Shown: in pieces, positions 3,549 to 20,138 of the stretch
Layout of the letters: each line of letters opens with the position of its first letter
Position numbering within the stretch: position 1 is the first letter of the stretch
IMG/VR virus record: IMGVR_UViG_3300036398_003367
Location: 1-21,333 of that record
DNA from: a virus
Strand: one strand, 5' to 3'
DNA: 21,333 nt
Position numbers and translations under genes: made by a program
The notes under the pieces: generated by a model
The model's database searches: none
What the model saw: the letters and a program-made list of their open reading frames with translations, nothing else
Told to the model about the DNA's origin: nothing

Positions 3549-4895
3549 TTATTTAACTAGCCATTCTTCGACTTCTGCCGAAATGTCTTTCATCTTAATC
3601 CAACTTGGTGAAACAATTTGTCCCTTACGTAAACGAAGTTTACCCATGAGACCAATTGTAGACCACTCTGGTCTACTTTCACGACTAACATATTCTGCTT
3701 CTTCATCATATTCAGGATTTAATACTCTATATCCATCTTCATCACGTATATATGAGCCAAAGTCATCTTTTAGATATTTCCCCGCCCACTTCATTGGAGC
3801 ATCATCTCCAACTACTGAAGGGTTTCCAGATACAACCCCAAATACAATTTCCCCCTCTTCAGCAATCTTAATTTTATCATTTATTAATGAAACTGAATAG
3901 CCTCTTCTATCTTCATTACTAGGATTGCCGTCTGCCCATTCAAAATATTCAGCATAGTCAGCTCCTCCTCCTGTAAATGAAAGATCGGCATTTACCTGCC
4001 CATCTCCTCTTACTGTAAATTCTGCATCTCCACCACCGCCAGAATATGCGCTATTAAAATAATAGCCACTGTTATTGCCTCTTGATGCTAGTGTTTGCAT
4101 TACGTGCTGGCCAAAGCTAGCGTTCGTATTCCATACTCTAACTGTATCAAGCAACTGAGCATCTTCAATATATAATCTATGTGAACCAGTATTTGTTGAT
4201 CCAATCGCAATATTTCCTGCAGAGCCAATACGCATTCTTTCTGCGCCGCTATTATTAAATGATGTAAATCCATCATTATTATTTATAACAAATCCGCCAG
4301 TTCTGTATTTAACAATATCGACGGAGGTAACGGCAGAATTTGCAGCATTATTTGTAATAAGACGTATAATTGTTCCAGCGCTATTTCCAGAACTTGTATT
4401 ATATATATCAAAATATCTTAGTCCATCGAATGGTTGATTTGTTAATACTAAATCCCCATTTGCCTGAATACGCATTCTTTCTGTAATTGAATTTGTTCCG
4501 CTTGCAGTATTTGAAAATGCTAGAGATGTTCCTCTTGCAGATGGGGTCCAGGTTTCAGCAGCGTATGCTGTTATTTCAGCTCCGCCGTTCCATCCAAGTC
4601 CATAGTTTGTTCCATCATGTCCAGACATTGAAATTCCGCCTAAAGTAAATCCAGATGTTACTGCAGCATTATTATTTGATCTCTGTAGGAGTAGGTGGTT
4701 TCTATGTGTAGATGCTGGGTTTGTAAATCTAGATATTAATGGCCATTCAGATGCAGCAGTAATTGTTTGCACACCAAGGAATGTGTTTCCTGTTGATGCC
4801 AGCGTTGCTGCGCCAATTGCAGAAGGAGTGGCGGTCCCTGGGGTACCTACTAATTCCCATTGACTTGTACTTGCATTCCATCTTTTAATTGCCAT
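3549..4895 (-). CDS. Tail fibre with C-terminal G2-type self-cleaving chaperone
   Basis: 448 residues. The N-terminal tag MAIKRWNASTSQWELVG is shared in form with the fibres at 4906 and at the left edge. The body holds repeated 'ERMRI...G' segments and 'AGNIAIGSTNTGSHRLYI'. From about residue 311 the sequence 'GADYAEYFEWADGN', then 'EDRRGYSVSL', 'IVFGVVSGNPSVVGD', 'WAGKYLKDDFG' and 'PEWSTIGLMGKLRLR' matches the Peptidase_G2 (IMC autoproteolytic) domain known from Bacillus podovirus neck appendages. There the domain folds the trimeric fibre and releases itself. I expect cleavage just before or within the GADYAEYF segment; the exact bond is not visible from sequence. The C-terminus is somewhat short for the family. 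GGAG lies directly after the previous stop codon. Confidence 0.88.
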   Translation of the reverse strand: MAIKRWNASTSQWELVGTPGTATPSAIGAATLASTGNTFLGVQTITAASEWPLISRFTNPASTHRNHLLLQRSNNNAAVTSGFTLGGISMSGHDGTNYGLGWNGGAEITAYAAETWTPSARGTSLAFSNTASGTNSITERMRIQANGDLVLTNQPFDGLRYFDIYNTSSGNSAGTIIRLITNNAANSAVTSVDIVKYRTGGFVINNNDGFTSFNNSGAERMRIGSAGNIAIGSTNTGSHRLYIEDAQLLDTVRVWNTNASFGQHVMQTLASRGNNSGYYFNSAYSGGGGDAEFTVRGDGQVNADLSFTGGGADYAEYFEWADGNPSNEDRRGYSVSLINDKIKIAEEGEIVFGVVSGNPSVVGDDAPMKWAGKYLKDDFGSYIRDEDGYRVLNPEYDEEAEYVSRESRPEWSTIGLMGKLRLRKGQIVSPSWIKMKDISAEVEEWLVK

Positions 4896-17001: not shown

Positions 17002-17080
17002 CTTTTCTCCGCCTTGCGGTTATATGATTTTTGAGTTGAAATCCAATTCTACCAAACTTTAATCTAAAGGGGAAGAGGTT

Positions 17081-19476: not shown

Positions 19477-19505
19477 TTGACTTTAGATAGAGATTATTTT
19501 ATACT
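19477..19505 (+). promoter_or_regulatory. Strong sigma-70-type promoter of an orphan RNA unit
   Basis: TTGACT (19477-19482), exactly 17 bp, then TATACT (19500-19505); each box has one mismatch to consensus. It begins 3 bp after the preceding stop codon. No ORF of useful size follows before the terminator at 19571. Confidence 0.72.
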
Positions 19506-19511
19506 CTATAT

Positions 19512-19610
19512 GTGCTGGTTGTAGCATCCCACCAAAATTTGCTCCCAGTACATGATCGCAAGATCAACAGAACCCAATCGGATCCGCCTCTGATTGGGTT
19601 TTGTCCTTTT
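19512..19610 (+). ncRNA. Probable small non-coding RNA, about 100 nt
   Basis: Bounded by a near-consensus promoter and a strong terminator. Predicted folding by eye: a 9-bp stem pairing 19510-19518 (AUGUGCUGG) with 19545-19553 (CCAGUACAU, one G-U), with a possible inner AGCA/UGCU stem. Next comes a 5-bp hairpin UGAUC-GCAA-GAUCA (19553-19566) with a GNRA tetraloop, then the terminator hairpin. The only ORF is 13 codons from 19552 without a ribosome site. It could act as a phage regulatory RNA, or be an attenuated leader of the 19629 gene, although that gene has its own promoter. I recognise no known RNA family. Confidence 0.6.
19571..19610 (+). terminator. Rho-independent terminator
   Basis: Perfect 9-bp stem AACCCAATC (19571-19579) / GATTGGGTT (19592-19600) with a 12-nt loop, followed by TTGTCCTTTT. 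The orientation serves rightward transcription; read leftward there is no T-run. Confidence 0.85.
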
Positions 19611-19622
19611 TAGCGGTATAAT
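19594..19622 (+). promoter_or_regulatory. Promoter placing the start site on the ATG at 19629
   Basis: Weak -35 TTGGGT (19594-19599, in the terminator stem), a 17-bp spacer, and perfect TATAAT at 19617-19622. The ATG starts 6 nt after the -10 box, so the mRNA should begin at or next to the start codon. No ribosome site is present. Confidence 0.6.
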
Positions 19623-19628
19623 AGTAGA

Positions 19629-19913
19629 ATGATTAGAACAAAGCTGATTACACTAGGAAATACTCCCACAGAAATAACATTTACTGATGAGGTAGAGTCA
19701 CACTATACAATAGTTATAACAAATACTAGCGCTAATAAACATGCGCTAATAGGTGATATTTCTGTATCAAAAACAAACTACGGTCTTAGAGTAGAACATG
19801 ACGGTCCACCAGTAACTTTAGAAAACATATCTTTTAACGATAAACTTTTTGGAATATCTGAAGATACAAACGCAACGACTACAGTTGCTATAATGGTAAT
19901 AGAAAGAAACTAA
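19629..19913 (+). CDS. Small beta-rich protein, probably from a leaderless mRNA
   Basis: 94 residues, without signal or membrane segment. Alternating hydrophobic strands ('KLITLGNTPTEITF', 'YTIVITNTSANKHALIGDISV', 'TTTVAIMVIERN') suggest a compact beta-sandwich, as in small virion decoration or fibre-tip proteins; this is inference. There is no Shine-Dalgarno sequence. Its stop codon lies one base from the 3' end of the oppositely directed tRNA-Arg gene, with no terminator between them. Confidence 0.7.
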   Translation: MIRTKLITLGNTPTEITFTDEVESHYTIVITNTSANKHALIGDISVSKTNYGLRVEHDGPPVTLENISFNDKLFGISEDTNATTTVAIMVIERN

Positions 19914-19914
19914 G

Positions 19915-19987
19915 CCTCTTCGGCAGGAGTCGAACCTGCGGCCAGTCGGGTAGAAACCGAATGCTCTGTCCTCTGAGCTACGAAGAG
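19915..19987 (-). tRNA. tRNA-Arg (anticodon UCU)
   Basis: Acceptor stem CTCTTCG/CGAAGAG, D-arm TAGCTCAGAGGACAGAGC, anticodon loop TTTCTAC with TCT, T-arm GCAGG-TTCGACT-CCTGC, discriminator G. No encoded CCA. The top pair of the anticodon stem (T-C) is mismatched; otherwise it is complete. Reads AGA. Confidence 0.92.
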
Positions 19988-19991
19988 TTGG

Positions 19992-20062
19992 AGCGAGTGA
20001 CCAGAATCGAACTGGCACTATCTGCTTGGAAGGCAGAGACACTACCATTATGTAACACTCGC
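19992..20062 (-). tRNA. tRNA-Gly (anticodon UCC)
   Basis: Acceptor GCGAGTG/CACTCGC, anticodon stem TCTGC/GCAGA with loop CTTCCAA (anticodon TCC), T-arm GCCAG-TTCGATT-CTGGT, discriminator T as usual for glycine. The D-arm (ACATAATGGTAGTGT) is weakly paired. No encoded CCA. Reads GGA, a glycine codon used heavily in the fibre genes. Confidence 0.92.
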
Positions 20063-20066
20063 ATTG

Positions 20067-20138
20067 CTGGACCACCAGGGGTCGAACCTGGGACCTAGAA
20101 GTTAACAGCTTCCCGCTCTGCCTCTGAGCTATGGTCCA
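20067..20138 (-). tRNA. tRNA-Asn (anticodon GUU)
   Basis: Acceptor TGGACCA/TGGTCCA, D-arm GCTCAGAGGCAGAGC, anticodon stem GGAAG/CTTCT with loop CTGTTAA (anticodon GTT), T-arm CCAGG-TTCGACC-CCTGG, discriminator G. No encoded CCA. First gene of the leftward tRNA unit. Confidence 0.93.

Follow-up and report, generated by a model that had tools for sequence, protein, structure and literature searches.

Does a stretch of phage DNA that carries a promoter and a terminator, with no plausible protein between them, specify a regulatory RNA, and if so, on what would that RNA act? The question is raised by a locus in IMG/VR virus record IMGVR_UViG_3300036398_003367, of which positions 1 to 21,333 were analysed (this whole stretch of 21,333 nt is referred to as the window). 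A first-pass annotation had proposed an orphan promoter-terminator unit for a compact, independently transcribed small RNA (sRNA), and the following features were assigned to it.

19477 to 19505, plus strand: sigma-70-type promoter TTGACT-N17-TATACT (-35 TTGACT at 19477-19482, 17-nt spacer, -10 TATACT at 19500-19505), seen in the sequence and kept in relatives.
19511 to 19606, plus strand: structured sRNA, a predicted transcript of about 95-100 nt starting near 19511-19513, from the minimum-energy (MFE) fold, a covariance-model match (98.9 bits) and covariation.
19511 to 19552, plus strand: hairpin 1, from covariation, with an 8-bp outer helix (19511-19518/19545-19552), a 2-nt bulge, an inner helix (G19521-C19544 plus 19523-19526/19540-19543) and an apical loop AUCCCAC...
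19519 to 19520, plus strand: the 2-nt 5' bulge UU of hairpin 1, whose first U is invariant in homologues.
19553 to 19566, plus strand: hairpin 2, UGAUC-GCAA-GAUCA, 5 bp with a GCAA cap, from compensatory changes.
19567 to 19612, plus strand: intrinsic terminator with a 16-pair stem and a U-rich tail, from sequence and covariation.
19583 to 19588, plus strand: terminator hexaloop UCCGCC, invariant on comparison of homologues and the proposed antisense or kissing seed.

Promoter-like sites by themselves are in no excess in the window (19 vs 20.6 in shuffles), and a good promoter with a strong terminator at most 110 nt downstream occurs there once and is absent from all 100 dinucleotide-preserving shuffles. 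The promoter and terminator described by the first-pass annotation are therefore present in a combination that shuffling does not produce, and its GNRA-capped hairpin is found as the GCAA-capped 5-bp hairpin 2; the 9-bp length given for the terminator stem had to be corrected, since the stem comprises 16 pairs, G-U pairs included (19567-19582/19589-19604, followed by CCTTTTT). The predicted RNA has an MFE of -41.6 kcal/mol (z = -6.3), which none of 200 shuffled sequences equalled in stability. The absence of a plausible protein was likewise borne out: the RNA of about 95 nt contains no usable ORF, its sole ATG frame near the start has 4 codons, and frames are not kept in relatives.

Related phage contigs were fetched through two neighbouring proteins, without using the RNA as bait, and a DNA match to the unit was found in 77 of the 88 loci so obtained. 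A covariance model (R1) built from 14 sequences matched the window and 73 other loci (74 together), once per locus and on the forward strand; in one further contig the sequence stops partway through the unit, and weaker matches of R1 on the reverse strand represent the terminator read backwards. The unit is missing from its expected place in L006 and L064, both long enough to hold it, so it behaves as a separable module. DNA patterns for the terminator loop and for hairpin 1 retrieved at least 120 further stretches and at least 119 stretches, respectively, some of the latter coincidental. From IMG/VR phage contigs, 149 distinct unit sequences were gathered in total, which is a lower bound for the family. 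Each of 23 unit-bearing contigs (up to 115 kb) carries exactly one copy, that is, one per genome of roughly 100 kb. Of 137 distinct sequences upstream of homologous units, 133 contain the promoter (with a 17-nt spacer in 128 of the 133), whereas 19 of 398 control windows do. No reading frame is conserved: ATG frames of at least 15 aa occur in 34 of the 149 units, indels among relatives are not multiples of three, and the ATG of the 4-codon frame is not retained.

Searches of Rfam 15 gave no match to the RNA at the gathering threshold and, under permissive settings (E up to 10), only chance matches to other families. Near relatives were not found among named phages, where only chance matches of 19-28 nt appeared. 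Among 84,980 cellular genomes searched by pattern, there were two coincidental matches and nothing else; these two were rejected as homologues, as the sequence around them is unrelated and hairpin 1 is missing.

Compensatory change was assessed first with 14 homologous sequences and then with 80. In the 80-row alignment, which was fitted to the structure and in which three rows are weak reverse-strand matches, leaving 77 true matches, standard pairing is seen in 96.4% of cells, and changes on both sides were seen in 23 of 32 pairs (402 cells); none of 500 shuffles came near these values. When the alignment was slid by one to three columns, paired cells fell to 33-46%. A smaller MAFFT alignment, not fitted to the structure, agrees on the compensatory changes, and individual minimum-energy folds show the same architecture in nearly all representatives. 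Hairpin 1 has both-side changes in all 12 modelled pairs, with 98.5% of cells paired, and hairpin 2 in all of its 5 pairs. Hairpin 1 and the terminator are present in every relative. The sequence and loop of hairpin 2 vary (GNRA, UUCG and others), and this hairpin is missing in L089, L090, L123, L197 and similar units, which makes it dispensable in some relatives.

Compensatory changes, whose lack the first-pass annotation had named as a refutation, are thus plentiful in each of the three hairpins, far above the shuffled and slid controls; together with the conserved promoter and terminator and the absence from Rfam, they support its suggestion of a compact new phage RNA with its own transcription unit. 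As would be expected of an independent sRNA gene, the unit combines its own promoter, an intrinsic terminator and a conserved structure without a conserved reading frame. Judging from these sequence comparisons, there is almost certainly a conserved, covarying, non-coding RNA family with three hairpins in phages distantly related to Stanwilliamsviridae. The family is previously uncatalogued; phage sRNAs as a kind are already known.

Upstream of the unit lies a conserved string of co-oriented genes (a 72-aa protein of phrog_12271 and its neighbours), and the genes downstream vary between relatives. The flanking genes have their named relatives in Streptomyces phages of Stanwilliamsviridae, which makes an actinobacterial host probable. 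In Stanwilliamsviridae such as Jay2Jay and TunaTartare, there are relatives of the glycosyltransferase, of NrdJ, of DnaE and of the 72-aa gene that precedes the unit; however, GGCGGA is absent from their sampled dnaE leaders, and the RNA did not turn up in the searched stretches of Jay2Jay and its relatives. At the syntenic place, downstream of the phrog_12271 gene, these phages have a conserved intergenic region of about 230 nt with a terminator-like hairpin at its end (L276 375-605, from Jay2Jay, and L278-L282), which was rejected as the same RNA owing to its different sequence and lack of a model match.

One of the invariant parts of the RNA is the terminator loop. The loop motif had been the bait for loci L089-L208; for this reason, only sets obtained in other ways were used to judge invariance, and UCCGCC never varies either in the protein-fetched set (74 loci) or in the set fetched by hairpin 1. 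In L209 and L214, both fetched by hairpin 1, the closing stem is changed (CGA/UUG and GAA/UUU) and the loop is kept. Many other terminators in these phages differ in sequence, 92 distinct ones being without the loop motif. The 3' end of 16S rRNA reads GGAUCACCUCC, and GGAUCCGCCUC was considered as a mimic of it; this idea was given up, since in L209 and L214 the closing stem is no longer GGA/UCU and UCCGCC alone is retained.

We tentatively favour, at somewhat less than an even chance, a trans-acting phage sRNA whose terminator hexaloop pairs with GGCGGA at translation starts. In this model, transcription starts at the promoter of the unit and stops at its terminator, and the resulting sRNA of about 95 nt would act in trans by displaying UCCGCC on the rigid terminator stem, where it could form 6 bp with GGCGGA in the translation-initiation regions of phage mRNAs. 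On sequence grounds, the most likely candidate target is dnaE, which encodes the DNA polymerase III alpha subunit; pairing at its leader would cover the Shine-Dalgarno sequence and may thereby lower translation of replication genes. In the L319-L398 set, GGCGG replaces GGAGG in the dnaE Shine-Dalgarno region of 27 of 28 distinct leaders, and the full GGCGGA is present in 25 of the 28 amid variable flanks. The dnaE starts considered were those of L319-L398 and of contigs G001, G002, G003, G006, G007 and G008; two of the contigs depart from the hexamer, with GGGAGGA in G008 and GGCGGT in G001, which counts against the model. Four sampled Stanwilliamsviridae have AAGGAG or AAAGG at this position and no GGCGGA.

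The leader of nrdJ contains GGCGGA in 110 of 121 distinct sequences, as one arm of a small leader hairpin. In L063, L080, L138 and L165, this hairpin has turned into other complementary sequences and the sRNA loop is still UCCGCC; hence, nrdJ is not an obligatory target, cannot explain the conservation of the loop in those four phages and is weakened as a universal one. Of 91 gene families, two (nrdJ and MGDRANF) conserve GGCGGA in their leaders, and just 148 of the 4096 hexamers are conserved in any family. Among 917 genes, the hexamer occurs 13 times at Shine-Dalgarno spacing vs 8, 5 and 5 times at control offsets, a weak enrichment. The match between loop and target is short (6 nt), and covariation between them is impossible because the loop does not vary. 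Given the weakened case for nrdJ and the weak genome-wide enrichment, the antisense reading is the best available and is not secure.

A different function is suggested by hairpin 1, whose 5' bulge opens with U in 77 of 77 aligned homologues while the helix around it changes freely. Beyond the bulge come a G-C pair and an A-U pair, either adjacent to each other or separated by one pyrimidine, and two subclasses, UN-GA and UN-G-U-A, alternate; the window copy has an extra U bulge, 19522, between the two pairs. In the arginine sandwich motif, the first bulge U forms a base triple with the A-U pair located two steps above it, as do U23 with A27-U38 in TAR and the U40U41 bulge with A43-U66 in 7SK (PMC6189040). 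The hairpin 1 layout (U, optional N, G-C, optional pyrimidine, A-U) agrees with that definition in secondary structure (PMC6189040), some members having the extra pyrimidine. Like HIV TAR and 7SK, it has a 5' pyrimidine bulge that starts with U, then G-C, then A-U; unlike them, it has no homology and the remainder of the RNA is unrelated, the likeness being one of layout only. The RNA may accordingly bind a phage or host protein through the U-bulge hairpin and C-rich loop, for titration or guiding, without pairing to any mRNA, a reading that is the main rival of the favoured one and that we consider unlikely on balance, though of appreciable probability. The likeness, however, is confined to secondary structure, no phage protein strongly rich in arginine turned up in all of six genomes scanned, and protein binding alone does not explain the invariant terminator loop. 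In the favoured trans-acting model, the U-bulge could provide a second interaction site, used either by an arginine-containing protein or for a tertiary contact. It is improbable, if conceivable, that a TAR-like arginine-fork site, recognised by a dedicated protein, and the invariant antisense terminator loop together form a protein-guided switch that lowers the expression of replication genes (dnaE) late in infection; such a switch, if true, would mean that a bacterial virus had arrived by convergence at a counterpart of the TAR/7SK arginine-sandwich RNAs.

The position of the unit directly downstream of the conserved co-oriented gene string would also suit an insulating terminator of the upstream operon, preceded by RNA with no function in trans. 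L155, L201 and L206 have no recognisable promoter, and L174 has, besides the full unit, a lone terminator copy with a GGATCCGCCTC loop directly after a reading frame (reverse strand, near 4489). However, the promoter retained in nearly all upstream sequences (133/137), the compensatory changes in hairpins 1 and 2, neither of which a terminator requires, the invariant loop and bulge bases, and the different sequences of many other terminators in these phages make mere insulation distinctly improbable. A cis-acting leader, riboswitch or attenuator for the gene beyond the terminator was suggested by the stable hairpins that precede the terminator and by a window gene that begins 16 nt past the T-run (19629); this is very improbable, as the downstream genes differ among relatives and are sometimes in the opposite orientation, the next window gene has its own TATAAT 6 nt ahead of its ATG, and folding revealed no obvious alternative antiterminator. 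A short mRNA for a tiny peptide, as might be read from ATGTGCTGGTTGTAG just past the -10 element, has next to no probability in view of its four codons, the unconserved ATG, the scarcity of longer ATG frames (just 34/149 units with at least 15 aa) and indels that are not multiples of three.

The favoured antisense sRNA has parallels in known systems. The 6C/B11 sRNA of Actinobacteria is likewise a stand-alone sRNA, with C-rich hairpin loops for which an action on G-rich 5' UTRs is reported (PMC10470900), a point in favour of the antisense reading; the present RNA differs in structure and sequence, is phage-encoded and has its invariant UCCGCC loop in the terminator itself, and the 6C covariance model of Rfam gave no match at the gathering score. 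With phage-encoded trans-acting sRNAs (reviewed in PMC12197685), it shares a phage-borne, non-coding nature and its own promoter and terminator, whereas no common Rfam family was found and the present family is large, covarying and drawn from metagenomic phages, with no isolate found.

Because a single copy is carried across a large group of environmental actinophage-related phages, the RNA is probably important to them. It probably helps the phage control genes during infection, although its role as a regulator is something we infer. To our knowledge, phage sRNAs from outside model phages are few, and those backed by covariation fewer still. The family, with its structure, model, two invariant elements and candidate target, offers an entry point to gene control in such phages, and could be added to RNA family libraries and thus annotated in future genomes.

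Several minor observations concern the surroundings of the unit. The nrdJ leader of the window (about 17002-17070, minus strand) contains a small hairpin, CCGCAAGGCGG, followed by AGAAAAGGUG; the hairpin shows compensatory changes in relatives (CUGCC/GGCAG, CGAC/GUCG, CGC/GCG and UCCA/UGGA) and, together with AGAAAAGGUG, constitutes a second conserved leader element. Three tRNA genes adjoin the unit at 19914-20138 on the minus strand (Arg-TCT, Gly-TCC and Asn-GTT). At 19617-19629, TATAAT stands 6 nt ahead of the ATG of a 94-aa gene, as in leaderless transcripts, and TANNNT is found 4-7 nt ahead of ATG at 74 of 517 distinct gene starts in related loci.
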